A DNA stretch of 64,000 nucleotides, from NCBI GenBank assembly GCA_009760855.2, contig WPIO01000114.1:559001-623000 (forward strand). The letters are read 5' to 3'. The notes under the pieces are model-generated. The model was not told where the DNA came from and searched no databases. It saw nothing but the letters and a program-made list of their open reading frames with translations. Source of the stretch: Cristatella mucedo. Taxonomy: Eukaryota > Bryozoa > Phylactolaemata > Cristatellidae. Position numbers and translations under genes: made by a program. This document shows positions 4,290-48,428 of the stretch, in pieces; the stretch's first letter is position 1, and each line of letters opens with the position of its first letter.

Positions 4290-5895
4290 GTGACCTCAGA
4301 CAACTCAATCTTTCTCTAGGCAACTACCACTCAGTCTCCATTCTACCACTCCTATCGAAGACACTGGAAAGAGTCGTCGCAGACAAGCTGAACTCATATA
4401 TTGAAACTTCAAAACTTGCTAGTAAGTTCCAGTCAGGCTTTAGAGCTAGTCACTAAGCAGAGTCAGAAGTCATTCATGTGTACATCAAAATAATTAAGAC
4501 TGCAGACATGGGTAGAGTATTTCTGCTGGTTTCGCTCGATCTTTCGGCAGCTTTAGATATTATAGATCACCAAGTCATTCTTGAGCACCTCTCATCTCGC
4601 CTCACCAGCACTGATCTGCAATGATTATGTGATATCTAAGTCGGAGACTCCTGAGGATTGACCTATATGGTGAAAGATCATCTGAGGCACCTCTGAAATA
4701 TGGGCTACATCAGGAATCCGTGCTCTTTCAGGTTTATTTATGGTTTATGCTCTCACTCTGGCCAATGTGATTGCCACGCACAACCTAGGCATACACTTCT
4801 ATGCAAATGACAATCAGTTATACCTTTGTTTTGATCCCTCCAAGCCTTCGAGCAGATCGAATTCTTCCAACTCACTTGCTGCTTGTATTGATGACAATCG
4901 CATAGGGATGGCAGCAAATTTTCTAAAACTAAAACGATGATACCACTAACTGACTAGTTATGGGCCAAACCAGTGTGATTCACAAATTGAAAAGGCTGAT
5001 GCCCAAAATTGGCTCTGCCAGCATATCTCCTGCTGAATCAGCTCGATATCTAGGTGTTATTTTCCAAAGTGACCTCTGGTTAGACGACCACATCAGCTCC
5101 ACAGTCAAATCCGCCTACTTTCAGCTACAAAACCTTGCTAAAATTTGGGCTTGTTTAGATAAGTATACCACGTCCAAGTTGGTCTATGCATTCGTGACAT
5201 CCCGTCTCGACTTCTGCAACTCACGGCTTACTGGCCTACCGGCATGTGCCATCAGGCGATTGCAGCTGGTGCAAAACTCTGCAGCTAGGCTTGTGTGTAG
5301 TGAGCGTCGCAGTTGCCACATTACTCCACTTCTCGCCGACCTGCACTGGCTACCTGTCAAGCAACGGATTGACTTCAAGGTTTTGTCGCTCACTTTTAGG
5401 TCACTTCATTCTTTGGCTCCAGCCTATCTCTCACATCTACTCCCTAAACAGGCCAAGCATCATACAACCCGCTTTTAGGAATCCAACAGTTTACCAATAC
5501 CTCGTACAAACATAAAATCCTTTGGAGACCGTGCATTTAGTTCGTATGCTCTCAAAGCCTGGAGCTCCTCCCGACTTTCGTCAGAACATCCCCTGACCTG
5601 ACTGCATTTAAAAATAACTTAAAACACACCTAATTAAGATCGCATTTAGTGGGTCCCTTTGATTCGTCCTTCACGTGCCTTTGAGTGCTGACACTGTGCA
5701 TGCTGCCACTAACCGCATTTGCATGATGACCCTGTGCATGTCACCCGTAACCATGTTGTTCATAATGTCTGTTTATCAAGCATGATATTACTTACCATTT
5801 AATTGCATTTCCCCTAGCTGCAAACTCGAAGTGCCTAGAAAGAGATTGAATTCGCTGAGGGGGCTTTATCAAGTGCATTATTATTATAAATATTA
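4290..5895 (+). mobile_element. L2-1 LINE, RT region to 3' end
   Basis: This is one of the longest L2-1 copies. It starts in the reverse transcriptase fingers (YRPV/LLSKTLE-like block, then SKFQSGF), and continues through the LDLSAAFD-like motif, the FYANDNQLYLCFDPS block (FYADD motif with the second D altered to N-D-N), LSLDDHISS-like, LDFCNS and the C-terminal WLPVKQRIDFKV and GDRAFSSYA blocks. The 3' UTR and hairpin end at about 5895. The reading frame is broken several times, and the longest intact piece is 172 aa (4960-5478). Part of it (from about 4620) has a counterpart at 45055-46325 with the same 3' flank, so it predates the duplication. It is immobile. Confidence 0.92.
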
Positions 5896-6036
5896 TTTCT
5901 ATACGATGGCTCCGTGGTCGTAAAAGGAAGATTCCAGGATCCACCTATCTAGCATTAAATAAGCATGTTACGGTTTGAAAAAGTCTCAGGCGGGTATCTC
6001 TATCTGATTCTCAGAAGAGTGATAACGGCTGAGTGG

Positions 6037-6254
6037 AGCCCCGAGGCATATGTGAAGCGCCTGAATTGAGATCAAGTTCTCTTGGGGCGCTATACAAATG
6101 AATTATGTTTTTTGCCAAGCTGGTTTGGTCCAGCGGTTAAGGTGCTCGCCCCGACCAAGGTCTCGCTGAGGTCGTGGGCTCGAGCCCCGAGGCACATGTG
6201 AAGCGCCTGAATAGTGATTAAGTTCTCTTAGGGCGCTATACAAATGAACTATAT
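6037..6254 (+). mobile_element. SINE A, tandem tail plus full copy, private to copy A
   Basis: A 3' half (6037-6105) is followed by a complete SINE A (about 6113-6254). The complete unit has a tRNA-like head with A box (tggtccagcgg) and B-box-like gggctcgagcccc, then the L2-like tail (gaagcgcctgaat...gggcgctatac). Imperfect 6-bp flanks gagtgg (6031-6036) and gagcgg (6255-6260) look like a target-site duplication. The matching place in copy B (around 46477) lacks it. Confidence 0.85.
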
Positions 6255-6262
6255 GAGCGGGT

Positions 6263-8040
6263 CTAACTTTCGTCAGCTTTGTAAACAGCATTCAACGTCT
6301 GTGCGACTTTCTGAGAGCATTCAGTGGAAAACTGATTGCAACCTATGTTGTGCAACGATGGAAGTGTAGTTTTATGGTTCATGGCGGGCTTATAATTTTA
6401 TCGGTTTATATTTTCTATGGAGTTATGGTTGAATGAGTTACTGCTTTACAGGGGCGAGTCACTGCCTTAACAGGCGCAGACAGTGGGAAACAGTACGGAG
6501 GGGAGGACGGCTGTGTGGTGTTATGCTGCGAATATTGAATAAATGCACCTTCATTGAATACCCTGGTGGTGTCTTGATTTCGTCATTCGTGTACCAGAGC
6601 ATGCATGATCGGTGTCAGCTTGCAGGTATGAATCCAAAGGGTATGGGTAGAGGATGCCAAATGCATGCAGAAGCAAATAGATGCAGAACTAGAATGAGTT
6701 AATTCTAGTCAGAGTTAGCAGCATTAGGAAATACTGCATTGCATTAGAGTTGTTGAAAGGGAAGTCCGCATACTCAAAAAGGGCTAAAGCGAAAGTTTAT
6801 TGCCTTTATCCAGATAATAAAAGCTCTGATTGATGACACATTGGCAACCTAAACTATGGGACAACAAAAGGTTAAGGAAAACAAACTGGGGAGCATGATC
6901 GTTACGCGACAACTGCCGATCACGAGGGATAGAGCACAGGGATAAAGAATACCACAAGTTACCACAAAAGCTACCACAAGAAAACTGATTAAAAATGTTG
7001 GTAAATTATGCGCAGCGACAAGCTTCTCACTAAGCCTGTTGAATAATTTAAAAATAAAGAAATACTGAAACTAAAAACTAGTCATTGCTTACTTCTAAGC
7101 CTGCAATTGTAGTACTGGTCTACTTAACCTGTACTCTCACTAGTCCTCCTATCTGATCGTCTCGTTCACACAGTGTGATATCTTCCAACCAGCATTTTGG
7201 CTAACAGTCTTATAGCAGTTTCTCGGGCTACTGTGAAATCTCTCTGTAAGCGGAAATTCTGTTCGAATGCACTGAAAGCCCGAAAATCATATCGGGCTAC
7301 TTTCACAACCTGCAATTACTTTGCATCATTTAGGTGGCAACCTGAGGTGACTGCCAAGGCCTCAGCTGTTTTCGTTAGATTTCTGTGCACCTCAGTTAAC
7401 ATCTTCTACTCTATTCTTGACTGCTTTGCCTGCTGTCTTTGTACGCCTTAATCTGCTACTTTTACTAATCAGTGGTTCTAATTACCAGCAGCACTTGGAG
7501 TATTGTGACATACTTTGACAGGTTGCTTTCAAAAGCCACTCCTTTGCTTTTGGCAGCTCGTCTCAGCTATGATCCTGTCAGCAGTAAATGCGGCCAAATT
7601 GCTATTTATTGGTGTGATAACGCTCATAGATAGACAGCTCTTCTAGGGAGCCACTAAAAGGATATATTAATATTGCTACTGCTAAAATGAGAGCCGGATC
7701 AGTGTATAGGAATACGCAAGTCAAACCCATCGTATGGGTACTTGACATTATTCTAAATATGCAGAGAAGGAAGGAGCAGTTGAAGCAGCTCTAACGACTC
7801 AATATAATTGTCTAGCTTCATGAACATTTGTGTTTACATCTAGCCTTACATTGAGTGACTCATAGTAGCAACGTTACCTACAGTTTGCACCACCATTCGT
7901 GATTATTTGAATGCTGCTAGCTCCGCAGAGTGAGTGCTATCAGCATATTGTATGCGTTATTAACTAAGTAATATTAAACATTATTTAAAAGAAGGCAGAA
8001 CCACTCCAAATTATTTTAAATGATCCTATGAGCTTAGAAG
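6263..8040. other. Duplicated non-repeat sequence, no gene recognised
   Basis: Single-copy-like sequence matching 46480-48340. It has AT-rich composition and short frames only (62-89 aa) that are not shared as conserved frames in the other copy. I see no exon, promoter or RNA gene that I can defend. Confidence 0.6.
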
Positions 8041-8052
8041 TTGGTAAGACAT

Positions 8053-8215
8053 GATGGCACACCAGGTAAGGCGGCTGCTTTTCACTACCTTGGTCTCAAG
8101 GTCGTGGGTTCGAACCCTGTGGCTGGCAATCCTTCATTGCCGTTACAAGCAGTGGTGATAGCTGTAAAGTATCTTCTGCCGCTATATAAAGAGGATGTTG
8201 ATTCAGATTTTAAAA
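8053..8215 (+). mobile_element. SINE B, shared by both duplication copies
   Basis: The head 'tgatggcacaccagg' is followed by 'ggtcgtgggttcgaaccc', a B box close to consensus. The body contains the hairpin-forming segments typical of SINE B. The counterpart at 48427-48590 sits at the same place, so this insertion is older than the duplication. Confidence 0.85.
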
Positions 8216-8314
8216 TAACTGATGGGAATCAACTTATCAAGAGCCTGTAGTATGATCTCTGCTCTAATGCGTATGAATGGTTCTTCGGATGCGTAAATGC
8301 ATGAAGCTTACAGA

Positions 8315-8445
8315 AAAATAATAATAACAATAGCAATAATAATGGGCTTGATATAGCGCCCTCAGAGAACTGAATCTCTTTCTATCTGCTTTACATTTGC
8401 TGCAAAAGGAAATGAGATTGAATGTTGAGTAATATCATAAAAGTC
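8315..8445 (-). mobile_element. L2-1 3' end fragment
   Basis: Minus-strand ATT tail (aataataacaatagcaataat), terminal hairpin and about 50 bp of UTR. The same fragment is at 48695-48825, so it is pre-duplication. Confidence 0.8.
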
Positions 8446-8899
8446 ATTAGATTTTTGTGAAACCCGTGAAAGATAACCGGAAAGTCAATTGTAATGACTT
8501 TTCAATTTCCACCGGATTTTTTGGCCATTGTTGAAGCATAGGAACTTCTCTGCATTAAGATACCATTTGCAACCTGGTTCAGGGCGAAGAATGATGGCGA
8601 AATATCCGAGTACTGGACATACAGAGCTGGAGCTTGATACACTTTTTGTGGTGATTATACTATGCAGATGTTGATTAGTAATAACGTGTTACGTTATAAT
8701 GGTTCATAGACAGGAGTTCCGATGAACACTTGCTATGGTGGTCGCATTCATAAGAGCTTGGCTTCTGAAGCTGCAGATGAAGATTTCGCAAATCATTTTT
8801 GAGGTATTTATTCATATAATTATGCAACTTTCTCAGCATAAACTCACGTTTGCAATGATCATCAAGTAGAATTTGCATACGCATAAGAACATTCCACTA
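8446..8899 (-). other. Sequence 3' of the tectonin pseudogene; shared short frame
   Basis: A 69-codon minus-strand frame (8675-8884) with a KLHNYMNKYLKND core is also open in copy B (49090-49371), with conservative changes. It has no counterpart in the intact tectonin genes. It might be a relic of another exon, or chance persistence in a young duplicate. No domain is recognised. Confidence 0.35.
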
Positions 8900-9515
8900 T
8901 CGATGTGTATGCAGATGGAAATACAGCTGTGATCGCAGAGAGATACATAATAAAACCATTGATTTTGCACAGCTGACCGCTGCCTGAAGCCATCGTAGTA
9001 AAGCCCATTCTAACTAATTCCCATTTTTGTTTGCAGTAATAGCTTCATCGTAGCTCGAACGTATCGCCCCGAGTCCTGCAGAGTCGGCTTCTGTATATTT
9101 CAAGTTGAGCTCTTATATGACCTGATCGCCCCACAGGAAGTTGATGAAACGATGCTTTCTCTGTGATAGATCTGCTCATATTTGTTCACAAAGCAAACAG
9201 TATTATTAAGGTCATTTACGTTTTATTCGTATGCCTATCTGTCTGTTCATGTCCAGCCTCTCCCAAAGTTCATTCAGCTGTGATATCAGCTTTATGCTAC
9301 ATGCCTCCACAGAATTCGTGCCCCAAAAGTATGTTTTCCCTGCGTCCAGTTTAGTGAGACAAACCTGTGCAGCCATTATCATCTTCGACTTTCGCAGTTT
9401 AGAAGATTCTAACAAATTTCATTCGCAAAAATTAACGAGCAATCGGTGAGAATGCCAAATGCTCACGTCAAAGCTGCAAATAGCCACAGCAGCTGTTGTG
9501 CGGTGTGATCCTCAT
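8900..9515 (-). pseudogene. Tectonin-lectin pseudogene (copy A)
   Basis: A decayed relative of the intact gene at 17181-17926. The minus strand preserves the acceptor-like ATTCTTTTAG at its 5' edge (exon from 9515), then blocks matching residues 40-50 of the intact protein (TKLDAGKTYFWGTN against NNLDVGKTSVWGTN), the blade around ADSAGLG and the MASGSGQLC blade. The blocks fall in different frames with stops between them, so no lectin could be made. It lies about 7.7 kb from the functional paralogue in the same orientation. Its sister is at 49310-49893, so the gene was already broken, or broke in parallel, around the time of duplication. Confidence 0.8.
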
Positions 9516-10110
9516 CTAAAAGAATGTTCACTGCTATACATCTTGATAAATTAAAACATAGGAGAAAATATATAATTTTTAGGCCGTTAAAATATAATTT
9601 AAGATAAGCACCTCCATAGGTTGTGATAGCATGTGCAGTGCAAGCTAGTGATTATGGGAGCTGATTGAGCAGACCTGCATTGCTAGAGCATTTAAGAAAT
9701 TTGTTACCATCGTATAATCTAAGTTTATTCGTATCGTGAATACTACTCGTAAGAAATATATCATTCTTCCGGTACAGGTAATTTAAAATAAATAGAGAGA
9801 GATTTACTGCACTGAATTATTACTAAAATGTTATTGATAAGGTATAGCATATAGTTATATGACTAGGTAAACAAGAAGCGCTAAAACAGCATAAGCTACC
9901 ATCACTAAATGTTGACAGACCTTCAATTACGATTGAGAGCGCTAGCCTCACACAACTATGACTTCACCAACTCTTACTTCTGAGATCGCTGCGTACGAGT
10001 GATTGATACTGACTAAGAGAAAAGCGAAAAATTATTAGTCTTTGGTAGCGTCTGCCTAGATTTGGAAGGTCTACTAAGGATACTTTAGCACAAAACTGAG
10101 CAACCAATAG
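9516..10110. other. Duplicated flank upstream of the tectonin pseudogene
   Basis: AT-rich, matches 49894-50497. It probably covers intron or upstream sequence of the dead lectin gene. I see no other exon with convincing splice sites. Confidence 0.5.
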
Positions 10111-10114
10111 AGTA

Positions 10115-11830
10115 ACAATAATAGTTATGAAATTGCTCAGCATTTTCAGAGAAACTAATCTCTTTCAAGGAACTTTACATTTGCACTGCAAAGGAAGCAT
10201 ATCTGATCGGTTAGCTGTAGCAGGCTCAACACCAACACACATAAAAAGGTTAAAGGTGACATGGTCAGCATGCAAATATGTCTAATGGCACCATGCATGG
10301 CATCAGCCCCCCACAAGCACACAAAAGAAGAATCCCGTGGACCCACTCAATGCTGTGATATATATAACCCACTCAATGCTGTGATATATATATGCGTTTT
10401 AGCTTCTTCTTAAATGTGGTAGTAAGATGTATTGGTGCTAGTAGGAAGAAAGTTTCAGGCTTAGGAGCGTACGAGCAAAAGGCAAGGTCTCTAAAGTATT
10501 TGAGATTCATACGAGGTGTAGCTAAGCTAACATATTCAGAAAAACGAGTAATATGATGCTTAGCCTGGTGGGGGTGAGTCTAACAGGTAGGCTGGAGCCA
10601 TACAATAAAGTGACCGAAGGTTGAGTAACAGAACCTTGAATTCACACACAGCTTGACTGAGAGCCAGTTTCAAAAAGTGTTGCCGCAACTGTGACGCTTA
10701 TTATAGGCAAACCTAGCTGTAGAATTTTTCACTAACTTTGAGCGCCTGATTTAACAGGGTGGTGGAACAGAAAGCAGGGAATTACAGAAGTCAGGATGGG
10801 AAGTCACAAGTACACAGACCAATTTAGATGAAGTGTCACTGTCTTCGCAAGCCTTAACTAAAGCTCTTTTATGTTCGTAAAAGTAGCCAGAATTGACTGT
10901 AGTGTTGATGCGGTCGTCTAATTATAGCTCACATTAGAACAGGACCCTATATTTCGAGCAGATTCAAGAGGATATCTATGCCGGAACAAATCCAATTTTG
11001 AGCTTGTAATTTATTAATTTTTTATTCACGTCGGGAAAAAGTAGTAGGTCGGTGTTATCACGACTTGAGTTAAGAAAGTTTGCAACTTTCCATGTGTGCA
11101 TGCCATCGATACATTTAGCGGAAGAGTTGACGGAATTCAACGTGCTTGAGGTCCAAGAGCGATCAAATGAAAGGTGCAGCCGAGTGTCATCTGCATTGAA
11201 GTGGAAGCCTAGGCTGTGTTCCTCAATAACACAGGCATGAGGGAGAGTGCACAACGTGATAAAAATTAGACCGAACACATAGCCCTAAGATACCTCATAC
11301 TTAAGTGGGTCCACGGATGATGTTTCTCCGTTCAAATCTCTAATACTCTTAAGTCACCCATTGAGATAGGATCGGATCCATTGCCCAGAAGTGAAAGGCT
11401 ATATTATACTTGGCGCTCACACCGGCTAGAGGAAGAGTATAAACCGTGAAAAGAACTGGACCAAGCACGGATCCCTGAGGTACACCAAAGTTCTAAGTTT
11501 CCTCGGATGATCTTTGTTCATTCATATCAACACTATGGAGCCTCCTACTGAGGTAAGACCTGAACCATTATAATGCAATGCCAGTAACGCCCATTCGAGA
11601 TGACAGGCGCTAGAGATAAACTTGTTTATCGATAGTATTAAAAGCTGCCAAAAGAGCGAGTAAAAAAACCAAGAGAGCCCTTACTAAGACTTCAGTTCTA
11701 AGAAGGTCGTTATACACCCGAAGTAATGTTGTCTCTGTGGAGTGATTAGCCCTAAACAAAGACTGGAAGCTACTAGTGAAGTTTGAAGATGAGTCACTGG
11801 CACCTCATTTCGCATGCGAAATGCAAGAGA
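10115..11830 (-). mobile_element. L2-1 LINE, diverged subfamily, RT to 3' end
   Basis: On the minus strand this runs from RT blocks (HSTETTLLR-like, VPQGSVLGP-like, FHFNADDTRLHLSFDRS with the ADD catalytic pair) to the C-terminal domain, 3' UTR and hairpin. Relative to other L2-1 copies it has 'NADDTRLHLSFD' rather than YADDTQLYLCFD, so it is an older or separate subfamily. A short local duplication of about 22 bp occurs at 10347-10391 ('acccactcaatgctgtgata' twice). Frames are broken. The same copy is at 50498-52560. Confidence 0.85.
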
Positions 11831-11919
11831 ACTCTTGAAGGCAAGGTATCAAAACATATATGCTAGCTATGAGGGACTTCTCGAACACTATTGGGTAAAT
11901 TCTGAAATACAGTTTTTTA

Positions 11920-12530
11920 ATTTGTATACATTATTAATAATAATCATCATAACACGTTTGTATAGTGCCTTCAGAGAACTAAATTTCAGTCAAGGCACTT
12001 TGTTGCAGAGGCATTACAAAAAGCATGACGGAATGATAAGTCGTAACTGCCACCACATGCAGGTACACTGTTAAAAGGAACATGCATAGTAAGACCGAAT
12101 GTGAAAGAACTATCAGATGCTATAACAAAAAATTGTTTTTTAAGTGTCCTTTCAAATTTCATCAGGTCAGGGGACGTAGTGACTTGGGTTGGTTGGAGTT
12201 CCGGGCTTTGGGATCATATGAACTAAAGCTTTTGCCTCCAAAGGTTTGAGTTTCTTAAGTGGTTTAGCTAAAGTGGTTTAGCTTTAGGTTTAGGTTTAGG
12301 TTTAGGCTAAATTACTTGAGAAAGAAGAGCGGTTTGTACTATTCTTCGCCTAGTGAGGGAGTCGTTATGATTAGTAGGCTGGGGTAAAAAAATGAAGGGA
12401 CAGAACCTTAAAGTCGAAGAGGATGTCGCTTGATTAGGAGCCAACGCAGGTCGACGAGAAGTAGTGTGATGTGTTTATTGCGACACTCCCGATAGCCGAG
12501 ATGAGCCTAGATGCAGGGTTTTGGGTCGAA
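11920..12530 (-). mobile_element. L2-1 LINE 3' part, diverged, cut at 12530
   Basis: Minus-strand hairpin and UTR start at 11925, continuing into the C-terminal coding domain as far as the block before 'gttttgggtc'. In copy B the same element continues to 53765, but here it is replaced at about 12531 by an L2-1 piece in the opposite orientation. Confidence 0.8.
12282..12306. repeat. Short TTTAGG tandem repeat
   Basis: About four hexamers (tttaggtttaggtttagg) absent at the homologous place in copy B (near 52990). The unit is not a recognised canonical telomere repeat for animals and the tract is too short to matter. Local slippage is the likely origin. Confidence 0.8.
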
Positions 12531-13498: not shown

Positions 13499-13988
13499 AA
13501 TGTGAGACGTGGAGTGTTTGAAACTGCTCGATGTCCCCTAAACGTGGAATCTGAGCGATTGGTAGTGCAAGACCCATAGACACAGTGACACTGTGCATGT
13601 GTTTAGATTAGGTAAACCATGGAACGTCGGTCATGTAATTTTAGATATATACTGAATATTCTTTGCATTCATGAAGATTTTTGTTGACCGAAGATCGGAA
13701 AGACATCGGGCAATTAGTAAGATCTTACTTTTTTCGACGTTTACCAATGACATATTAGAGTATTTTCAGAGTAGCTCTATTACCATTGGACTATTCCAAA
13801 TATCGGAATGTAGCTGGGAATGTAACGCCCGAGAAACACATGTAGTGTTGTAGAATGGATTACAATGTAATGTAGTGTCTTACTTTAAATTCTATTTTCA
13901 ATAGTATCTAACTGCACATTAGCTAGAAATGAAATGATTATAACAATGATGACGACGATGACTATTATGAGTGACAATTAAAGTTAAT
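13499..13988. other. Duplicated non-repeat sequence
   Basis: Matches 58796-59273. It contains nothing I recognise as an exon. An open 60-codon plus frame (13671-13853) is not conserved in copy B. Confidence 0.55.
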
Positions 13989-13997
13989 GGTGCATAA

Positions 13998-14162
13998 AAT
14001 CCTAGCTGATTAAACAGCCTCTTTTTGTATAGCGACAGAAGAGCCTTTACGGCTATCACCACCGCTTGCAGTGGCGAAATGGAATAACCCACCGCAGGAA
14101 TCGAACCCACGACCTCTGGACCGAGGTCGTGAAGGCAACCACCTTTCCTAGTGTGCCATCAC
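13998..14162 (-). mobile_element. SINE B, private to copy A, with target-site duplication
   Basis: A good SINE B in minus orientation: head complement at 14150-14161, B-box (ggttcgattcc read on minus), three small hairpins and the 'cagctaggatt' end. Flanks ggtgcataa (13989-13997) and ggtacataa (14163-14171) differ at one base and act as a target-site duplication. Copy B has the empty site at 59274-59282. Confidence 0.93.
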
Positions 14163-14171
14163 GGTACATAA

Positions 14172-16140
14172 TGGTTAGCTCCACTTTTGTTTTTACTTGA
14201 GTTAGGTATGTTCTGTTTTTGAGATATTTTGAGGCTGGTATCTCTATCTGGAATTCAGAAAAGCCACAATGATTAAGTAGGTCTTACTTCCGTAAGTTTC
14301 CTATAGAGCTAGCAAGTTATGTGCGACATTTGGCGATTATTTGGTTGCTAAAAGATGACGTGATTTAAGAAATATCCAGCCAAACTGGTGTCGGAAAGGT
14401 GGTAGAGGTTATGGGTGGTGGAGGGTATGGGTTAGAGGTTATGGGTATCATGCAAGTAGCCCGACGAAAGAGGTTCATCAAATTTACATTGTTAGAAGAT
14501 ATAATGACGTTTCATAGGAGTTGTAAAAGTGAAGTCTCTGCCGATTGGTACGTTGACCTTTAAGGTGGGACAAAAAATCAAAGGGTTTCAGAAAACGCAC
14601 TACAGCCCATGATCAATACTGCGAAGGCTTTCAATGATAAGGGTAAGAGTACAGCGAAAGAAATCCAGTAAGCTACCCGTAGCGGAACTGATCACGGGAG
14701 TCGGTATGATTATGGATCTGGTTCATACACGTCTAATGCTTTGGGTTGGCCTTGTGACTAAATGCATATTCTCTTGGTTTATACGCATTTATTTTATCTT
14801 ATTTATTTTTAATCATGTGTGCAGTTGTTCTTTTTCCGCTTGCATATTTATTTGTGTGACCATAGACATAGCTATGGATAATTTTACGTCATAACAAGTA
14901 TAATGCATTCTCGCAAAATAAAGCTTTGTATGAAATATGACTGGGATATTATTTATGGTCAACGAATTAAAACCAGTCTAATAAAGTATTATCCTTATCC
15001 CTTGCAAATCTCAGCCAAAATATAGGAATGAAGACTCTGTTGTCTTTTTGGCGTATGTTATGTGAAAATTCTAGCATCATCGTAATGTTTTTATAACGAT
15101 ATCATGGAACCAAAGCAGCAGACAATTCCTAACTGCGAATATTCATTGGTAAGCCGAGTGTGAACCTCAAGTTGGAAGTGGTCATCCCTAGATTTTTTCC
15201 GCAAGCGTATAACCGGAAACCTCTTCTCATTATGTGAGCGAAGACATGGCTGCAAAGTCACGACAAGGTTTTGTTTGGGCTTCACTGGCTTCACTGTCTC
15301 AAGCGTTAAGCCACCTTTAAGAGCCTCTCTCTGGCTTGCAGATCATTTTACTGGCTTCGTGCTAGCCTCAAAGCTCATCCAGTGACTATCGCACCACCGG
15401 CACCTCGGTTATCAGTCACATGGCTTTATCCGGTGCTAAATTAAAATCTCTCTGTAGTCAGAAATTAAGTTTAAATGCACTGAAAACCCCGAATTAAGCC
15501 GAAATTCTTTCATAGCTTGCAATTATTTTGCAACTGTTTCACCGACCTTCTGCCAACACAGCTGCTAACTTACATTTTGTCATCGCCTGCTTTGGTGTGC
15601 ACCTATGTACTAACCTGTGGATATTGCTAATTAGCCGTCTTAACAAACTTTGGCCTCGAGTATATTTCTGTGTGGTTCGAAACGGTTTTCATTGCAGTGA
15701 ACATTTGGCGTTTGCATACTTTTTTCATCTGTAATACCACGATAACACTTAAAAAAATTGGTTTGCTTTTTTGCAGAGAACTATACAGTGCCTGCATAGA
15801 AGATCTTGTTTTCCAGTGGCGTCATAAAAAGGAGCAATTAGTATTTTTATTATGAAAACGAGAGCAGGATCAGTGTATACGCATACCAAGGTAAAGAAAA
15901 TGCATGAGTACTTCCCATTCTTTAACGCAGGCTGAAAGAAAACGCTTCATTGAATTAATTGCTGTCAAGACAAAATAGAATTTCTTCCCTTCACGGACAT
16001 TTGCGTTTTCATCTAGCTTAGGTTGAAAGAGGTTTTGATACGAATTAGCACAATACCCTACTACATGAACCTCTATAAGGATTATTTAAATGCTGGTAGC
16101 TCCAGTCGGTTAGGTAGCTAAGTATAATTCACTGGGGTTA
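14172..16140. other. Duplicated non-repeat sequence, no gene recognised
   Basis: Matches 59283-62090. In copy B part of it (14640-15200 here) is present twice in tandem. AT-rich. Short frames on both strands (60-86 codons) do not match any family I know. A minus-strand frame around 15091-15294 is partly shared with 61132-61323, but I cannot call it a gene. Confidence 0.5.
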
Positions 16141-16144
16141 AAAA

Positions 16145-16360
16145 TTAATGCCCTTGTTTGGCAGAGTGGTTAAGGTGCTTGGCCCGACCAAGGTCTAGCC
16201 GAGGTCGGGGTTCAAGCCAGCGGCCTAAACAATCAAACCAATACCAGCTGATCTAACAGCCTCTTTCGTAGAGCGACAGTAGATCCCTTGCGGCTAAACG
16301 TGAAGTGCCTAAATAGAGATTAAGTTTTCTTAGGGCGCTATACCAAAAATTATAATGAAA
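16145..16360 (+). mobile_element. Composite SINE (A head, inverted B tail, L2-type tail)
   Basis: Order: tRNA-like head (ttggcagagtggttaagg ... gggttcaagcc), spacer, then the 'cagctgatctaacagcctc...gagcgacag' block that is the reverse complement of the SINE B 3' end, then 'gtgaagtgcctaaatagag...agggcgctatac', the L2-type hairpin tail. The counterpart at 62095-62312 shows that it predates the duplication. Confidence 0.85.
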
Positions 16361-16720
16361 TAGCTTTTTTAATCATCTTAAAAAACTGAAGAAAAAACTC
16401 CGAAGTCTCTCCATAAGTTCTTGCGCGTTTAAATGCTGTTGAATGACTGATTTCCACTGGATATACCTGAAAGTTCTGCTGTAATATGAATTAACGTTGC
16501 TAAAGTTGCCTCAATATAGACGCCTCACAGACAAAATCAGACGATTTAATTAAACCACCGGTGTACAGAATTGCAAAAATTCCGTTTTTTAATCAGTAGC
16601 CCTAAGCAGATGTGGATCCATAGGAACGCATTTTCGTGCTTCAAGGACTTTTCCCAGCTCGTTTAGGTCTAAGGTTGTTGATACTGTATGTATCCGGTCT
16701 CGGATAACACTTGAGCTGAA
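16361..16720. other. Duplicated sequence between SINE and L2-1 end
   Basis: Matches 62313-62670. AT-rich, no gene or repeat recognised. Confidence 0.5.
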
Positions 16721-16724
16721 GTTT

Positions 16725-16985
16725 TAGCAGGTCCCTGCGATTCATCCTTCATGTGTTTATGCGTGCTGACACTATATATGCTGCCACTTGCCACACTTGC
16801 ATACTGACCCTGTGCATGTCACCCATAACCATGTTATTCATGTTGTTTTATCAATCATGATATTACTCACCATTCTATCTAGTTTTCCTTTGCAGAAAAT
16901 TTAAAGCACCTAGGAAGAGATTTAGTTCCCTGATGGTCCTTTATCAAGTGCCTTATTATTATTAGTATAATTAGTGACTCATATT
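16725..16985 (+). mobile_element. L2-1 3' UTR and hairpin
   Basis: Starts in 'agcaggtccctgcgattcatcc', carries the UTR's repeated 'ccctgtgcatgtcaccc' motif, a decayed hairpin (cacctaggaagagatttagttccctgatgg) and an ATT tail. Its counterpart is at 62675-62935. It lies just downstream of the tectonin gene's stop codon, about 200 bp away. Confidence 0.85.
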
Positions 16986-17010
16986 ACGAGAAGATGCCTC
17001 GTTAAAAAGA

Positions 17011-17016
17011 TTTATT
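17011..17016 (-). promoter_or_regulatory. Candidate poly(A) signal of tectonin gene A
   Basis: AATAAA on the minus strand about 165 nt past the stop codon. In copy B the matching bases (around 62961-62970) no longer read AATAAA, so either another signal is used or this one is not the real site. Confidence 0.35.
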
Positions 17017-17180
17017 AGTAGTAGTGCATTACGGAAAACTGGCCCACAGTTGTGAGCTACGACCAAAAGGCACTATATTTGTCTCAGTCTCAAGTTTCGG
17101 GATGCCGGACCTGCTCTAACAGAGGCTTCTCTTCAGAACTCATTATTGAAAATACTTAGTCGTGTGTTTGTGCTACAATC

Positions 17181-17926
17181 TTACAACAAGCAAACGTTTA
17201 CAATGGCCATCATGTTGGAAGCGTTTACGCCAAATAATTGGCACGTCATCGAGAGAGTGAACTGCCTTAACGAAGTTGTCACTGGTGACTCAATCCACGT
17301 TTGACCTGTTGGCGATGAAGCTGTAATTGCAGAGCGGCACAGAATACATCCAGAGGTGTTGGTTGCGCACACCTTGCTGTTGCCTGAAGCTATCATGGTG
17401 AAGCCATTCCCAACTAGTTGCCACGTCCCACCATTGTCCGCCGTGAAGGCAGCGTTGTAGGTTGAAAGTATGGCCCAGAGTCCAGAAGGACCAGCATCTG
17501 CGTATTTTACGTTAGGGCTCTTGTAGGACCAAGACGTTCCACAGGGAGTTGACGAACTAATACCTTCTCTGTGGAAGAGTTGGTCGTATCCGTTCACAAC
17601 CCAGACGGTGCCGTCAAGGTCACTTACAGTCGATTGGCTAGCCCATCCGTCTGTTTGTTTCCAAGCATTGCCCGACGGCTGTTCAGCTTTGATATTAGCT
17701 TTACACCAGATATCTCCGACGAAATTCGTACCCCAAACAGACGTTTTACCTACATCCAGGTTATTGAGAGAGACGTGCTCAGTCAGTATCACCCATCGGC
17801 TTTCGTAGTACAGAGGATTGCCAAAACTTCCCTGCATAAAAGCCAATGAGCCATTGATGAATATGCAGAAAATACCAGCCATCCCTGCAGCTAGCCAATG
17901 AAGCTGGTGTGTTGTGTCTTCGGCAT
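17181..17926 (-). CDS. Tectonin-domain lectin (tachylectin-1 / fish-egg-lectin-like), terminal exon A
   Basis: A 233-residue open frame from ATG at 17882 to TAA at 17181. The exon appears to begin at 17926 behind TTTCTTTTAG on the minus strand, so at least one 5' exon should exist upstream. The frame stays open through to that acceptor, so the ATG could be internal. Residues 1-20 are hydrophobic (GIFCIFI) and could be a signal peptide. Tectonin-like blades follow around residues 43-60 (DVGKTSVWG), 86-103 (DGTVWVVNGYDQLF), 128-146 (PSGLWAIL), 164-182 and 208-228. The pattern of about five repeated strand motifs and the length suit the tachylectin-1/egg-lectin class, which bind bacterial surface glycans in innate immunity. 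Cysteines at 60, 114, 172, 179, 182, 214 and 231 suit a secreted protein. Binding of any ligand is inference. Confidence 0.85.
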
Positions 17927-18035
17927 CTAAAAGAAATTCTACGTGATTAACTTAGCTAAAAATCGAAACAACAGCACGACTTCTTGCGTTTGGACTGCAA
18001 GTGTTTAGGCTCTGTATGATTCCCTCGGGTTAAAT
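17927..18035 (-). other. Intron or upstream flank of tectonin gene A
   Basis: Starts with the minus-strand acceptor and polypyrimidine run TTTCTTTTAG at 17927-17936. Conserved at 63878-63983. No upstream exon is visible before the SINE at 18040. Confidence 0.5.
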
Positions 18036-18037
18036 AT

Positions 18038-18262
18038 TAATGCCCCGGTTTGGCCGAGTGGTTAAGGTGCTCGCCCCAACCAAGGTCTGGATAAAGCCGT
18101 GGGCTCAAGTCCCGTGGCCTAAACCATCCAACAAATACCTGTTGATTTAACAGCCTCTTTCGTAGAGCGACAGAAGAGCATTTACGGATAAATGTGAATT
18201 TCCTAAATAGAGATTAGGTTCTCTTAGGCGTTATGCAAATGAATTATAACAATTTCTGACAG
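18038..18262 (+). mobile_element. Composite SINE, second locus
   Basis: Head 'tttggccgagtggttaaggtgctcgcccc' region, B-box-like 'gggctcaagtcccg', then the inverted SINE B tail ('aacagcctctttcgtagagc') and the L2-type tail. It has the same three-part architecture as 16145-16360 at an independent site, so the composite itself was mobilised. Its sister begins at 63984 and is cut by the window end. Confidence 0.87.
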
Positions 18263-18837: not shown

Positions 18838-21800
18838 TTGTAATGCATCTCCGTCTCTAACTCTACAAAGTCATAAAGACCATGTTGGTGTTGCAGAGGA
18901 AAGTTTTGTATAGCGCTCTCACAGCCTAAGCGGCTTTTGGTGCGCATTCGATACCCAACAGACTTCGTCTCACGCAGCAAAGAGAAAGGGGGAAGCATAG
19001 CATAGTCAGGAGAGCAGTTGAGCTAGTGAGTAGCATAGAAGTAGCTGCTCAGGACCGCTGAAAAGGATGTGCCATAGTCGACAGTGGGAGAGTATTTGTC
19101 GTTGCGTAAGAATTGTGGAAGCGAGTTCCACAGTCTAGGACCTGCAGAGCTAAAGGTTCTGTCGCCAGCGGTCTTTAAGCGGAGGAATGGGGCAACTAAT
19201 TTATTGTCCACACAGGACCTGAGGGCACGAAGAGGCTGAAACTGATGCAGCGGTTCAGCTGGGTACGAAGGAGCGAAGCCGTGGCAGACCTTGTGGGTCA
19301 GCATAAGAAATTAGCTCTGTATCCTTGCTCAACCGGAAACCATCCTAGCTCTTTTAGCAAAGGAGACACGTGCTCAAACCGCTGGGACTTGAAGACTAGA
19401 CTTGCAGCCATATTGGGAGTCCGCTGCAGTGGCCTAATGGCTTTCTTTGGCATCCCAGCCAAAAGGGAATTACAATAATCAAGCAGAGACAGAACTAAAG
19501 AGCTAGTTAAATTTTTTTTTACAAGCAACTGGGGGAGACACCTCCCAACCTTTGATAGGGATCGGATGTGATGACTAGCAGTAGAGGTGCACTTCTGAAT
19601 GAAGCTTTTGAAATTAAGACAGCTGTCAAAACTACACCTAAATTTCGAGCACATGGTGACGGTCGCACGGCACCATCAGTTATTAGAAGAGCAAAGCGTT
19701 TTAATCCAGCCACACTCTTAGGGTGTCCTATGAGCAGCTGCTCTGTTTTATCATCATTAAATTTCAGGAAGTTTTCCGACATCCAGGATCGAATTTTGGC
19801 AAGGCAAGCATTCAGTTTCTCAGTTGCTGCAGTTGATTCTGACGGTTTGAATTATAAATACAACTGAGTATCGTCAGCATAGAAGAGATATCCTATTCCA
19901 CGGGCCTTTCACTTTACCCAGAGGTTGTGTATGAATGGAGAACAGCAAGGGACCGAGTACAGACCTTTTAGGGACTCCACAGGTGACTCTTCTCGCATGT
20001 GAGACCTGACCCCCACACGACATGGATTGAACGTGATCAGACAAGTATAATTTAAACCACGCCATTGCTTCGTCTGCCAGACCGATCGTTGTTCTCAATC
20101 GTTCAAGCAGAACTTCGTGATCAATGGTGTCGAAGGCAGGAGACAGATCTAGCAGAGCTGGGGCAGTGACATTCCCGTCGTCGTTGCCACATGGAATGTC
20201 ATTGTTAGCTCGGAGGAGAGCAGTTTCAGTGGAGTGCTGCCTCTGGAATCCTGATTGAAATTTTTCTAACATTCCATTATTTTCAATATGTTCAACCAGC
20301 TGCTTAGCTACACATTTTTCAAGAATCTTTGATAAGAAAGGAAGAAGGGAAACTGGTCGATAGTTGGCAAGGACCTCTGTGTCTAATCCAGGCTTTTTAA
20401 GAATGGGTCCAACGATTGCCGATTCGAAGGACTTGGGGCTGACCTCTTTTCCCCAAGAAGCATTAAAAATCTTGGTTATGGCAGAGCTAAGTTGGTCTGC
20501 AAGTGAAGACCACAGAGATAAAGGTATAGGGTCTTCAGGAGACGAGCTCTTTTTGCTAGACAATATTGAGGCAGCCACATCGCTGGAGAAACATTGGAGA
20601 ACCTTTTAAGGATGGTCTCTGGTTGAGGAACAGCGATTGCTTTAGTCGGAGGGGGCTCAATGGAGGCACGAATGTTCACAATTTTTTCAGTAAAGAAGGT
20701 GGAAATCTTTTTTGCAGAGCCATTAATATCTGGGGAGTCAGACGTCACAACATTGGCCAGTAAATGGTTTACTGACTTGTAAATCTGTTTAGTGTCCGAC
20801 TGGCAGGAATTCAGCTTTCTAATGAAAAAAGCCCTTTTTTTAAGCTTTCGGGTGTAAACTCAAAGGAAGTCTTTGAAATATACTAGATCTGCATCCGATC
20901 CCGATTTCTTGAAACGACGTTCAAGCCTGCTATTAACCCGGTGCATCATTAGGAGTTTTTTAAATTGAAAGGAATCTGTACGACTTTAAACACGGATAGA
21001 GCGAACGGGAGCATGCTTGTCGAGAGCACTCTGGAGTGTTTTGTTCATAGCATCAGTGAGGGTATCAAGGCTGCAGGTCGAGTCTGAATGTAAATCAAGA
21101 AGACCTGCATCACAAATAGATTTCAAAAACTTGTCCATGTCAATGCTATGTAAGTTACGTCGTTTGAAAATTTCGACATTGCCCTGTACGTACGAGGGAG
21201 CAGGAACTGTAAATGAGACCTAAAAATGGTCTGAGAGGGTCATTGGGCGCACTACAAGGTCCGTGGCGAGGACATCTCTACTGATCACGAGATCTAGAAT
21301 GTGGAAACCGACGTGGGTGCTATGATTGACGTATTGGGCCAAATCAAAATTCTCCAGACAGTCAAAAATGAGCGGACCTGGCTGTTGCTAGGGTTGTTAA
21401 CTTGAATATGGAAGCCTCCTACAATTAATATTGGCCTCTCACTCAAAATATTTTAGCAAGGAACTCTGAAAACTTCTCAATAAAAAAGTTTTGACATCCA
21501 GAAGGAGGCCGGTATATCACAACAGTGATAGACATTTTCTTTGATGAATACCTGATTGCAACCGCTTCAAACGATGGTCCATGCCAAAAACTGTACATTT
21601 AATAGCCAAATGATTTGACAACAACAATTGCAGCCCGCCGCCAACCTTGTCAGAACGCATGGACTGATAGAATGAGAACCCGAGTGGAGTGGTCTCAGAA
21701 ATACAGCTACGGGAACAAGGCGCCACCCAAGTTTCGGTAAGCAGAAATGCATCTAGCTTCTCCTGGACCACATGATCGCGGATAAGTAACCCCTTGGTTT

Positions 21801-24311: not shown

Positions 24312-24477
24312 GGACCGATATAATTTCATTTATTATTTATTTGTATTGCGCCCAAGAGAACTTAATCTCTATTCAGGCGCTTTACATATGCCTCGGGGCT
24401 TGAGCCAGCGACCTCAGCAAGACCTTGGTCGAGGCGAGCACCTTAACCGCTGGATTAAACAAGCTCGATGATGGCCC
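24312..24477 (-). mobile_element. SINE A
   Basis: Minus-strand SINE A: L2-like tail (gcgcccaagagaacttaatctc on plus), 'gcctcggggcttgagcc' around the B box and the A-box arm ending near 24470 (ccttaaccgctgg). It sits inside the GC-richer segment at 23.9-24.9 kb. Confidence 0.88.
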
Positions 24478-25534
24478 TTGGGGGCAGAAAACTACCTCTG
24501 ACAAAGGAAGACGAACGGCAAGTAGCTGTATCAAAGGGTGTGGGAAAACGGTTTCAGCACGGCCTCACCGCAAAGCCGTGTTGCTCTCTGCAACCGGTTT
24601 TGTAGCCCCAATTAGGACTTCCACAAATACGGCTGAGGAGAGGAAGCCATTATGACCCAAAATGAAAAACCTCCACGATCGGATCAGAGACTTTGATGTA
24701 AGCAAATACAATGCCGAGCTCTTGACATTGAAGTTAAAATATTTAAAATTGTTGGGAAAAATGGGACATGATTGCGTTTGTATAAAGTTTGCACCATCAA
24801 TTCCGGTCAGTCTTAGCCAAATGGCACAGTGCAGGCAGTTCTTAACCAGGCCGTTTGCCAATGTGCCACAAAAACCATTTTCATTGGCCGCTTTATGCTT
24901 CGTGGTAACAGCTAGTGATCTCCTGGCATGATAAAAACGTAGCTGTTAAATAGCTTGAAAACTTTATTGTAATTTTAATTTACATTTATTACTAATTCGA
25001 GTGCTCTTGTTACCTGGATGACTGAGCAATTCCTTGTTTCCAGAGTCAATATCTGGAACCTGAATTAGCATTCAAAAATAAAAAATTTCCGTCGAAAACA
25101 TGCGACGAATAGAACTATGGAACTGCAGTACAACCTAACAATAACTCATACAATTTCCTTGGTTGAAAAAATTAGACCTATAGAGATAAAAGCAAAGGAT
25201 CGGTTCCTTAGCTTCTAAGTAAAATTGAGGGTTAATATAATTCCGAAACGGTAGTCTATATATTTTTAATGCTGGCGGGAAGCAGCCATTGCTTTAGATT
25301 ATAATAATTATGAACACGTCAGTACTAAGTAGATTCACATTCTTTTAATATCAATAATAGAAAGCCATACCGCTCATATTGTATTTTTATTTGTAATTGC
25401 AAGTCTTATATTTAAGACCAGCACAGAGGCCTTATGGCGGATCAGACACGTGGCTCAACTAGAGTATGCCGATCGTGGCAGCTCAGTAACCGCAAAAAGT
25501 TCACCAATAAATAAAAGTAAATTTAATTAATTCA
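24478..25534. other. Unassigned sequence
   Basis: 24480-24930 is open for 98 codons on the minus strand and 89 on the plus strand. Neither shows a domain I recognise. 24930-25534 is AT-rich with nothing visible. Confidence 0.35.
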
Positions 25535-25655
25535 TATAGCATCCTAACAGAACCTAATCTCTGTTCAGGCGCTTCACGTTTGCCACGGGGCTCGAGCCCA
25601 CGACCTCAGCCAGACCTTGGTCGAGGCGAGCACATTAACCACTGGACCGAGCACT
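25535..25655 (-). mobile_element. SINE A
   Basis: Minus-strand copy: decayed tail (gcatcctaacagaacctaatctc), 'gccacggggctcgagccc' and the head 'cacattaaccactgg'. Full-length but diverged. Confidence 0.85.
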
Positions 25656-41389: not shown

Positions 41390-42610
41390 TAATGTATTGT
41401 AATTTAATGTGCCTCCATCTGTAACTATTAAAAGCTACTAACACTATGCCGGTGTTAGGGGGGAGTTTTTTATACCGAACTCCCAGCCTAAACGGCTTTC
41501 GGTCGCATTTGGTAGCCAAAATACTTCATCCCACGCATCAAAGAGAAAGTAGGAATCAAAGCAAAGTGAGGAGACACGTAATCGAACCTCTGGGATTGAA
41601 GACTAGCCTTGCAGCCATATATAGCCAGTCGCAATGGCCTCGTTACTTTGTTTGGTGGCTAAGCTAAAAGGGAAGTACACTAATCAATTAATTAATTTAA
41701 TAATACTAGCTGACTAAACCGGCTTCTTTTGTATAGCGACAGAAGAGCCTTCAGGGCTATCACCACAGCTTGCAGTGGCGTTAAAGGATCACCCACCGCA
41801 GGAATCGAACCCATGACCTCGGGACCGAGGTCGTGAAAGCAATCCGAAACAGAACTAATAACCTAGTTAAGTTTTGCTAGCCTCTGTGGAAGGCAGCTCC
41901 TAATCTTAGATAAGGATCAGACGCAATGGCTAGCTGTAGAAGCAGTCTATTGAATGAAGCTTTCAAAATATAGGCAGCTATCGAAAACGACACCTAAGTT
42001 TCGAGTTCGATGATGGTTGCACGACAGATTCACATATTAGATGAGCAAAGCCTTTTAATCCAGCTTAGTGTCTCCTATCTGCAGCAATTCAATTTTATCT
42101 TTCTAGTAGGACATGTGCTGCATCTTGAACCAACCCCAATTGAAATGTTTCCGACACTTCATTCTTTGCAATGTGTTCAACTAGCTGCTTAGTGACAATT
42201 TTTCAAGAATATTTGACAAAAAATGAAGAGAAACTGGGAGATTTCGAGCCAGAAACTCTGTATCTAGTCCAGGCTTTTTAAGTATCGGTCTAAAGCTTAA
42301 CGATTTGAAAGACTCGGGCAAGATTCCTTTTTTCAAAAGACGCATTTAACATCTCGATTAAGGTTGGGCAGAGTTGGTATGCCAGTAATGACAACCGGAA
42401 AGATAATATAGGGTCTTAAGGAGACGGGCTTTTCTTACTAAACCTTGTTAAGACACCCACATCGCATGCAGAACCCTGGAAAACCTTTTGAGGAAGGTCA
42501 AATGCTGTGACTCAGCAGTTGCTTTACTCGGAGAGGGCTTTAGCAAAGCACGAATATGCACATATGCAATACAATTTCATGTAAGCTCACTCATGCAGAT
42601 TAGTCTGAAT
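41390..42610 (-). mobile_element. LINE2, RT to 3' end, interrupted by a SINE B
   Basis: Minus-strand UTR (aatgtaatgtattgtaat tail complement at 41387), C-terminal block near 41590-41690, then after the SINE B the RT and linker blocks to about 42600 (complement of LLEKLSNI, SPDTEFLA-like, KPGLDTEF-like). Internal deletions have removed the 41540-41570 and 42110-42130 equivalents. Heavily broken. Confidence 0.82.
41705..41840 (-). mobile_element. SINE B inserted in LINE2
   Basis: 'agctgactaaacc...cttttgtatagcgacagaag' to 'gaatcgaacccatgacctcgggaccgaggtcgtg' on the plus strand is the complement of SINE B. The first ~20 bp of the head are missing. Confidence 0.88.
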
Positions 42611-44849: not shown

Positions 44850-45053
44850 ATATTCGAAGCCTTGTGAAACCACTGTAAAAAGGTATTCCAAAACAGTTGC
44901 CCCCTTGGACTGCAATCCACTGAGCTAATGGCTGCTTTCAGATCTGCTTTTTAATTCGTCATTATAGTTTAGAAAATAAGTGACTGCTTTAATCAAATGG
45001 GCATGGGGATAGTGCTTGTTATATGAATAAATGAGTAGCACTAGCTTACAGCA
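44850..45053 (+). repeat. Family 4 end, local direct repeat
   Basis: Repeats 44217-44436 ('cgaagccttgtgaaa', 'tagcactagcttacagca') about 620 bp downstream. Copy B of the segmental duplication begins exactly where it ends. Confidence 0.8.
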
Positions 45054-45054
45054 A

Positions 45055-46325
45055 TGATTAAAGTAATATCTAAGTGGGAGACTCCAGAGGATTGACTTAA
45101 ATAGAAAACGATCATCTGAGGCACCTCTAAAATATAAACTGCATCAGAAATCCGTGCCAGGTCCAGTTCTTTTTAAGGTTTATACTCACACTCTTGCCGA
45201 TTTGATTGCCGAGAGCAATTTAGGTCTCCACTTCTATGCGGATGACACTCAGTTGTACCTTTGCTTTGATCCCTCCCGGCTATCGAGCACCTCGAATTCT
45301 CTAAACTCGCTTGCTGCATGTGTTGATGACGTCTGCATATGGATGGCAGCAAGTTTTCTAAAACTAAACGATGATGAAAGTAACTTGCTAGCAAACTGGG
45401 CAAACCCAGCGTGGTTCTGACATTGGAAAGGCTGACCATCAAAATTGGCTCTGCCCGCATATCTCCTGATGACTCAACTTGAAATCTAGGTGTCTTGTTC
45501 CAAAGTGACCACTCGTTAGAGATCACATCAGCTCCATGGTCAAGTCTGCCTACTTTCAGCTACATAACATTGCTAAAACTCGGGCTTGTTTAGATAAGGA
45601 TACCACGTCCAAGTTGGTCCATGCATTCGTGGCATTCCGTCTCGACTTCTGCAACTCACTGCTTACTGGCCTACCGGCATGTGCCATCAGGCGATTCCAG
45701 CTGGTGCAAAACTCAACAGCCAGGCTTGTCTGTCACGAGCTTCGCAGTTGCCACATCACACCACTTCTCGCTGACATGCACTGGCTACCAGTCAAGCATG
45801 GGAGTGACTTCAAGGTTTCGGCACTCACTTTTAGGTCACTTTATTCTTTGGCTCCAGCCTATCTAGTAGATCTTCTCCCCCACCAGGCAAAGCATCGCAC
45901 CCCCCACTTTTCGGATTCCAAAAGCTTACCAAAACATCGTACAAGCCTCAAATTCTTTGTAGACAGATCATTTAGTTCGTATCCTCCCAAATCCTGGAAG
46001 TCCCTCCCGACTTGCGTCAGAACATCCCCTAACTTTACCACATATTAAAAGAACTTAAAAACACACCTATTTAGGACGGCATGTAGTGGAATCCTTTGAT
46101 TCATCCTTCACGTGCTTATGTGTGCTGACACTGTGTATGCTGCCACTAACCACTTTGCATGCCGACTCTGTGCATGTCACCCACAGCCATGTTATTCATG
46201 TCGTTCACTTATCAAGCATGCTATTACTTACCATTCAATTGCATTTTCCTTTGCAGCAATTTTAAAGTGCCTAGAAAGAGATTGAGTTCTTTGAGGGTGC
46301 TATATCAAGTGCATTGTCGTTATAA
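45055..46325 (+). mobile_element. L2-1 LINE, RT to 3' end
   Basis: Contains FYADDTQLYLCFDPS with an intact catalytic YADD, SSTSNSLNSLAACVDD, LKLNDDESN, then LDKDTTSKLVHAF and the C-terminal domain in a 170-codon frame (45536-46048). The hairpin and ATT tail end at 46325. Frameshifts separate the two frames. Orthologue of 4620-5895. Confidence 0.9.
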
Positions 46326-47663
46326 TTATTTCTATACGATGATTATTTCTATCCGTGGTCGTAGAAGGAAGATTGCAGGATCCACCTGTCTGACATTAAA
46401 TAAGCATGCAACGATTTGAAAAAAGGTTTAGGTGGGTATCTTTATCTGATTCTCAGAAGAGCAACAACGACTGAGTGGGCCTTAATTTTGTCAGCTTCGT
46501 AAACAGCATTCAAGGTCCGTGCGGCTTTCTGTCAGCATTCAGTAGCAAACTGACTACAACTTATGATTTACAATGATGGAAGTGTTGTTGTATGGTTCAT
46601 TGCGGGTTTATGTATTTATCGGGTTATATTTTCTACAGAGTTATGGTTGAATTAGTTTACGTTCTACTGGGGTGAGTCACTGCACGGACAGGTGCAGACA
46701 GTGGGAAACAGGACGGGGGGGGAGGACGGCTGTGTGGTATTACGCTGCGAAAATTGAACAAATGCACCTCCATTTAAGTCCCCAGTGGTATCTTCCTTTC
46801 GTCATTCGTGTACCAGTGCCTGCATGCTAGGTTTCAGTGAGCAGCTTTCAGGTATGAATCTAAAGGGTATGGGTAGATGATGCGATGTGTCTGCAGAAGC
46901 CACTAGACGCAGAAAGCGACTAGAATGAGTTCATCAGAGGTAACGGCGTTAGGAAATACTAACTTTCATAAGAGTTATTGACGGGAAGTCCGCATACTCA
47001 AAAAGATCTCAAGCGAAAGTTCAATGCCTCTATCCAGTTAACAAAAGCTCTGATCGATGAAACACTGGCAACCTTAACTCTGGGACGAGAAATGTTAAAA
47101 AAAACTGGGGAGCATGATCTTAAAGTGACAACTGCCGAACACGAGTGATAGTGCACAGGGATAAAGACCCATGAAGCAACCAATAGAACACCGATTGAAA
47201 ATGTTGGTAAATTATGCTCAGCTACAAGCTTCACACAAAGCCTGTAGAATAATTTAAAAATCAAGAAATACTGTAACTAGACAACAGTTATTGCTTACTT
47301 CTAAGCCGGCATATGTAGAGCTGTTCTACTTAACCGTACTCGCACTAGTCTTCCTATCTGATCGGCTCGTTCACTCAGTGGGATATCTTCAAACCAGCAT
47401 CTAGGCTAACTGAATTCTAGCTGTTTCTTGGGCTAAAGTGAAATCTCTCTGTAATCGGAAATTCAGTTTGAATGCACTGAAAGCCTGATAATCATATCGG
47501 GCTACTTTCAAAACTTGCAATTACATTGCATCGTTTTGGTGGCAGCCCGAGGTGACTGCCAAGGCCTCAGCCGTTATCGTTAGATTTCTGTGCACCTCAG
47601 TTAACTTTTTCTACTCTTTTCTTGTGTGCTTTGACTGCTGTTTTTGTACGCCTTAATCTGCTT
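46326..47663. other. Duplicated non-repeat sequence
   Basis: Counterpart of 5896-7455 without the SINE A pair. No gene recognised. Confidence 0.55.
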
Positions 47664-47747
47664 ATTATAATAATAAATAAGACACTTGATAAAGCGCCAT
47701 CAGAGAACTTAATCTCTTTCTAGGCGCTTTACATTTGCTGCAAAAAA
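47664..47747 (-). mobile_element. Hairpin-only L2-1 insertion, private to copy B
   Basis: 84 bp: AT tail, hairpin (aagcgccatcagagaacttaa) and gcaaatgt-equivalent start, and nothing upstream. Copy A has an uninterrupted site near 7455. Short gctt flanks (47660-47663, 47748-47751) may be the target-site duplication. Confidence 0.88.
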
Positions 47748-47751
47748 GCTT

Positions 47752-48341: not shown

Positions 48342-48346
48342 ACATG

Positions 48347-48426
48347 CAAATGTAAAGCGCCTAGAAAGAGATTAAGTTCTCTGAGGGCGCTTTATCAAGT
48401 GCAATATTGTTATTATTATTATTATT
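48347..48426 (+). mobile_element. Hairpin-only L2-1 insertion with target-site duplication, private to copy B
   Basis: 80 bp holding only 'caaatgtaaagcgcctag...gggcgctttatcaagtgc' and an ATT tail. Flanked by acatg at 48342-48346 and 48427-48431. Copy A has a single acatg at 8049-8053. The hairpin sequence is near consensus. Confidence 0.95.
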
Positions 48427-48428
48427 AC

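Follow-up and report, generated by a model that had tools for sequence, protein, structure and literature searches.

A three-part SINE in a 64-kb window whose middle is the reverse complement of a second SINE's 3' end

The stretch of DNA analysed here is 64 kb long and is referred to below as the window; we infer that it is animal-type nuclear DNA, and all copy counts in this report cover this window only. It is rich in LINE-like fragments and in large segmental duplications. A reverse transcriptase fragment lies at 19874-20605 (-) (Pfam PF00078, RVT_1, E 6e-17), and the 17.2 kb frame, the one frame that was put to Pfam for this gene family, encodes a tectonin-like lectin (PF19193, E 2.4e-20). 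The tectonin-like gene family is repeated along the window, at 17181-17951 (-) and 63132-63902 (-), with related stretches at 8.9-9.5 and 49.3-49.9 kb. Two large segmental duplications pair 4618-12527 with 45051-53231 and 13501-18049 with 58797-64000, in pieces that are 76-89% identical, and insertion differences between the duplicated blocks yield pairs of filled and empty sites for the repeats.

The element of interest occurs at 16117-16355 (+) and 18009-18249 (+). It consists of a 5' extension of about 30 bp, a head, a middle of about 76 bp and a hairpin tail of presumed L2 type. We call these two composites c16 and c18, and a third one at 62.1 kb c62; copies of the related families SINE A and SINE B are denoted by a or b followed by their position in kb. 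In c16 the 5' extension (16117-16145) is followed by the head (16146-16222), the middle (16223-16298) and the tail (16297-16355), the last identified by the tail profile and a consensus match. The same parts of c18 lie at 18009-18037, 18038-18118, 18117-18192 and 18191-18249. The two elements are 81.4% identical over 237 columns (extension 79%, head 78.5%, middle 84%, tail 84.5%). A 25-base core, AACAGCCTCTTTCGTAGAGCGACAG, occurs without mismatch at both 16255 and 18149, where 100 shuffles give a mean of 0.00 by chance; c62 has more than three mismatches to it.

The heads contain putative Pol III promoter boxes. Scored against A and B box consensus sequences, c16 has an A box of 11/11 (TGGCAGAGTGG) and a B box of 10/11 (GGTTCAAGCCA), c18 likewise has 11/11 (TGGCCGAGTGG) and 10/11 (GGCTCAAGTCC), and c62 has 10/11 for both. 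ARAGORN found no tRNA genes in the window, and Rfam found no tRNA in the composite head at the gathering score, nor in c18 or a50 at E values up to 10. A run of at least four T, which would stop Pol III, occurs once in the tail of c16 and nowhere inside c18 or c62. When RNA folds of whole elements were compared by eye, the middle had no common structure; the tail hairpin was decayed in the fold of c18.

The first-pass annotation had placed the same three-part element at two independent loci, 16.1 and 18.0 kb, and at their duplicates at 62.1 and 64.0 kb. The element is indeed complete at the first three positions, and the fourth shows 41 bp only. c62 (62060-62303 (+)), in which all parts are present and the profiles match, is the segmental duplicate of c16, which is contained in the block 14644-18049 / 60573-64000 (88.6% identical). 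The copy at 63960-64000 (+) ends at the window edge and is a partial duplicate of the 5' end of c18 (38/41 identical to 18009-18049); the 41 bp inside the window comprise the 5' extension and 12 bases of the head. Four independent copies are thus rejected; the evidence comes from two loci, of which one has a complete duplicate and the other a truncated one.

Four shorter elements, which we call SINE A, have the head and tail of the composite without the middle. They lie at 6114-6255 (+), 24327-24470 (-), 25517-25652 (-) and 50674-50818 (-; a50). The copy at 25.6 kb has the junction, GTGGCAAACGTGAAG, that by eye is nearest to the predicted 'empty' site. a50 starts 11-13 bases ahead of its A box and has an empty site at about 10266. 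Just before the 6.1 kb copy there is a 5'-truncated SINE A (about 6037-6106), so that the insert at 6037-6255 reads as a truncated SINE A, a run of six T and a full SINE A. This insert is absent at the paralogous site at about 46.47 kb. Because a 7-bp target-site duplication (TGAGTGG/TGAGCGG, by eye) surrounds both units together, the dimer may have inserted in one event. The composites cluster apart from SINE A with a support of 0.951 (7 sequences, 141 columns).

The second family, SINE B, has a different head, and its 3' end is the module found in the composite, in direct orientation. Six copies are present: 8052-8206 (+), 13997-14158 (-; b14), 41700-41844 (-), 48434-48571 (+), 52334-52491 (+; b52) and 57411-57576 (-). 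The copies at 8.1 and 48.4 kb are diverged and form a duplicate pair, of which the latter was missed by the profile of the composite middle. In Rfam, b14 gave weak matches only, to tRNA-Sec (E 6.9) and mascRNA (E 3.3). b14 has an empty site at about 59.28 kb and a 9-bp target-site duplication with one mismatch; b52 has an empty site at about 11.75 kb, and a clear target-site duplication was not found there. In all four pairs examined, the SINE A inserts at 6.1 and 50.7 kb and the SINE B inserts at 14.0 and 52.3 kb, the insert was absent from the paralogous site.

Within the composite middle, a stretch of about 57 bp corresponds in reverse complement to the end at which SINE B terminates 3'. 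This confirms the inversion described in the first-pass annotation and corrects the size given there, about 50 bp. The inverted module lies at 16240-16296 in c16, 18133-18190 in c18 and 62185-62241 in c62, with 47, 51 and 43 of 57 bases, respectively, matching b14. The best reverse-strand score, that of c18 with b14, was 69, compared with a null maximum of 26. Across all pairs of a composite and a SINE B copy, the reverse score exceeded the largest of 200 first-order resamples in 12 of 18 (c16, 5/6; c18, 5/6; c62, 2/6). The forward score did so in 5 of 18 pairs (three with c16, two with c62), and for c62 it was at least as high as the reverse score in five of six pairs (with b14, forward 40 and reverse 39). 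All five of these forward matches above the null maximum fall in the head, within 16159-16213 and 62103-62168, and thus have no bearing on the middle; the head profiles of the composite and SINE B families also match each other. The profile of the composite middle found its three source copies and five of the six SINE B copies, each on the strand opposite to SINE B. Conversely, a profile of the SINE B tail found the three composites in reverse (E 2.5e-9, 5.2e-9 and 1.6e-4). One end of the module coincides, to within a few bases, with the SINE B 3' end, which b14 and b52 define independently through their filled and empty sites; from there the module runs to TAGCC, where the tail of the composite begins. 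Its junctions correspond in c16, c18 and c62.

The third part of the element had been described as an L2 hairpin, and its likeness to the tails of LINE-like repeats was confirmed: the composite tail matched the consensus of the LINE-like hairpin tails with a score of 71 (0/10000 shuffles), and in the window the tail profile matched longer LINE-like repeats at their 3' ends, with E values down to 9.7e-13. The clade name L2, for the tail and for the repeats that bear it, is putative. These tails terminate repeats carrying open frames. Of five open frames in or beside two such repeats, one had a weak RVT_1 match in Pfam (E 0.0091, below the curated cut-off). With this one weak match, we tentatively regard the tail-bearing repeats as LINEs.

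Do these copies represent one chimera that moved as a unit? Because the junctions correspond in c16, c18 and c62, it is implausible that the chimera formed twice, and on this point the first-pass annotation stands. Its further claim, that the chimera was itself mobilized, is a reading that we favor. The flanks of c16 and c18 outside the shared stretch, compared over 100 and over 500 bp, were at shuffle level in 4/4 tests, and the homology between the two ends 3' at the SINE 3' end. Together with the corresponding junctions, these results make a single three-part chimera, formed once and then copied as a unit, the best reading and in our judgment a reasonably probable one. Several findings count against it: there are only two independent loci, the reverse match of c62 is weak (2/6 pairs above the null maximum), Rfam places no tRNA in the head, and Pfam gives little support for the tail-bearing repeats being LINEs. 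The target-site duplications sought at the composites were not clear in any of the three (without a chance control); among the filled and empty pairs of the related SINEs, two of four had one and two had none. No empty site for c18 was detected among the tectonin paralogues, where 3/3 tests were at shuffle level.

A mechanism can be proposed from these features. The three-part element would be a non-autonomous retroposon (SINE) family with an internal Pol III promoter in its head. The chimera would have formed once, when the end of a 5'-truncated SINE B landed in antisense between the head and the tail of a SINE A-like element. The landing of such a fragment fits the position of the module at the SINE B 3' end, which is the end kept by a 5'-truncated, LINE-copied insert. 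Alternatively, the parts may have been joined by template switching at the GGC/GGCTA bases common to head and module. The chimera would then have been transcribed by Pol III, which fits the boxes in the head, and copied by a LINE reverse transcriptase recognizing the tail, which fits the LINE-like tail. We consider it a rather speculative extension that one SINE module is usable in either orientation, as the 3' end of one family and as the inverted body of another. If it is true, SINE modules are orientation-free cassettes, and inversion is a further route to SINE bodies.

The description of the element as SINE A plus an inverted piece of SINE B was sound as regards the chimera and the inversion, and it assumed a direction of transfer. 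The module distances do not root the composite relative to two groups of SINE B, and we claim no direction as to which family donated the module. The composite lies at 0.285 from four similar SINE B copies, which lie at 0.281 from the diverged 8.1/48.4 kb pair; the composite lies at 0.391 from that pair. In 1000 bootstraps the smallest distance was between composite and SINE B in 452 and between the two SINE B groups in 548. As for age, both composites were already in place when their block was duplicated: c62 is found in the partner at the position of c16, and the partner also contains the beginning of c18. c16 and c62 are identical at 196/240 positions inside the element, compared with 522/598 and 247/291 in the flanks, so that the divergence inside is somewhat greater than outside and about equal to that of c16 and c18 (198/242). 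b14 is absent from the partner of this block and is therefore younger than the composites. It is the only dated insert that shares the block of the composites, and so the only one that can be called younger.

The module may have had the reverse history, in which it existed first in the three-part element and became the 3' end of SINE B when the latter ran into an antisense copy or switched onto one. The unrooted distances and the absence of b14 from a block partner that both composites predate are what speak for this possibility, to which we give a limited though real chance. Some SINE B copies, however, likewise predate a block duplication, namely the duplicate pair at 8.1 and 48.4 kb, and the module stops at the SINE B 3' end, as expected for a LINE-copied fragment of SINE B.

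SINE A itself could also be the derived form, its middle having been removed by a deletion between the similar GCGGC(C)TAAAC sequences on either side. These imperfect direct repeats are clearest in c16. The SINE A copies at 6.1 and 50.7 kb are absent from their paralogous sites, but they lie in another block than the composites. Such a deletion predicts GGC(C)TAAATG, whereas all five printed SINE A junctions have GGC followed by A. The junction resembles a direct fusion of the head to a LINE tail and slightly favors SINE A as the older plan, a distinction that turns on one base. We think a deletion conceivable, though not the expected course.

The preferred reading, of a chimera copied as a unit, must also be weighed against local duplication at the DNA level, in which a stretch of about 240 bp was copied between 16.1 and 18.0 kb and the chimera never moved by itself. 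c16 and c18 have one orientation and are separated by 1.9 kb, segmental duplications abound in the window, and the two copies share the 29-bp 5' extension, which is outside the expected transcript. This extension matches between the two with a score of 28 (0/2000 shuffles; 23/29 identical), and the A box comes 42 bases after the start of their shared stretch, compared with 11-13 bases from the start in a50. The sharing of about 30 bp upstream of the expected Pol III start thus leaves room for a small local duplication. Yet no homology extends into the 100 or 500 bp past either end, and the 3' boundary is the SINE end, a point at which a duplication of DNA should have no reason to stop. We judge local duplication to be improbable.

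The 5' extension (16117-16145 and 18009-18037), which lies beyond the expected Pol III start, was absent from the earlier description. Any of three causes would suffice to explain it: an element that is longer, transcription by read-through, or a small duplication at the DNA level. We rejected a remnant of an L2-type tail, since comparison with the tail consensus gave p values of 0.60, 0.93, 0.08 and 0.58 for c16, c18, c62 and the 64.0 kb copy. In comparisons with individual tails (13 for each of three copies), the c62 extension reached the 99% level of the shuffles three times in forward orientation and the c16 extension once in reverse. When the c18 extension was compared with the sequence upstream of the four SINE A copies, 17, 62, 440 and 455 of 500 shuffles scored at least as high, giving one nominal match (a25).

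The element resembles tRNA-derived SINEs with a LINE-derived tail (SINE2 class; HaSE, PxSE), which have an A/B-box head, a body and a LINE-matching 3' end, and it differs in that its body repeats, in reverse complement, the 3' end of another SINE. PxSE1 and PxSE2 have a common conserved central domain of 44 bp, and the available part of that report, whose full text uses the word 'inverted' once, makes no mention of an inversion (PMC8010984). HaSE3 has been attributed to template switching, as a chimera with a 5S rRNA head on a HaSE1-like 3' region; as here, the modules of two families are joined in one amplified element, according to the part of the source at hand (PMC3272025). In contrast to our case, the words 'inverted', 'antisense' and 'opposite orientation' are absent from the main text of PMC3272025. 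The SINE superfamilies with a highly conserved domain (V, CORE, Deu, Ceph, Nin, Inv, Pln, Snail, Meta) likewise have a three-part build with a body common to several families, as described in the available portion of PMC6887750. That the module is one of these known domains, carried by both families, is in our judgment improbable: SINEs of distinct origin do share bodies (available parts of PMC6887750 and PMC8010984), but the middle (79-86% identical between copies) is not clearly more conserved than the head (78-81%) or the tail (79-85%), a comparison made without a statistical test.

Among the matches listed for open-licence papers, no title or beginning of an abstract mentions a SINE with an inverted body. 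Relatives of the composite were not found in viral contigs, and c16 had no match in phages and c18 none in plasmids. One match in a prokaryote genome contig was rejected by eye as chance, its 401 surrounding bases having no other part of the SINE. Modular SINEs, and bodies shared between families, are already known. The origin of the body is unknown for the majority of SINEs, according to the accessible text of PMC6887750. The presence in one window of an inverted-3'-end body beside SINE B, the body-less SINE A and the tail donor provides a concrete and cheaply testable case of SINE family assembly.

The tail of SINE B was also compared in forward orientation with the other tails. It did not match the LINE tail used (9155/10000 shuffles), and 13 of 78 single forward comparisons reached the 99% level of the shuffles, none of them with a LINE tail. 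The SINE B tail (SINE B 3' ends, e.g. 13985-14063 (-)) and the SINE A tail share CTCTT..G.CGCTATACAAA in direct orientation, at 17/20 bases (8/10000 shuffles), and from this resemblance a distant common origin of the two tails is possible.
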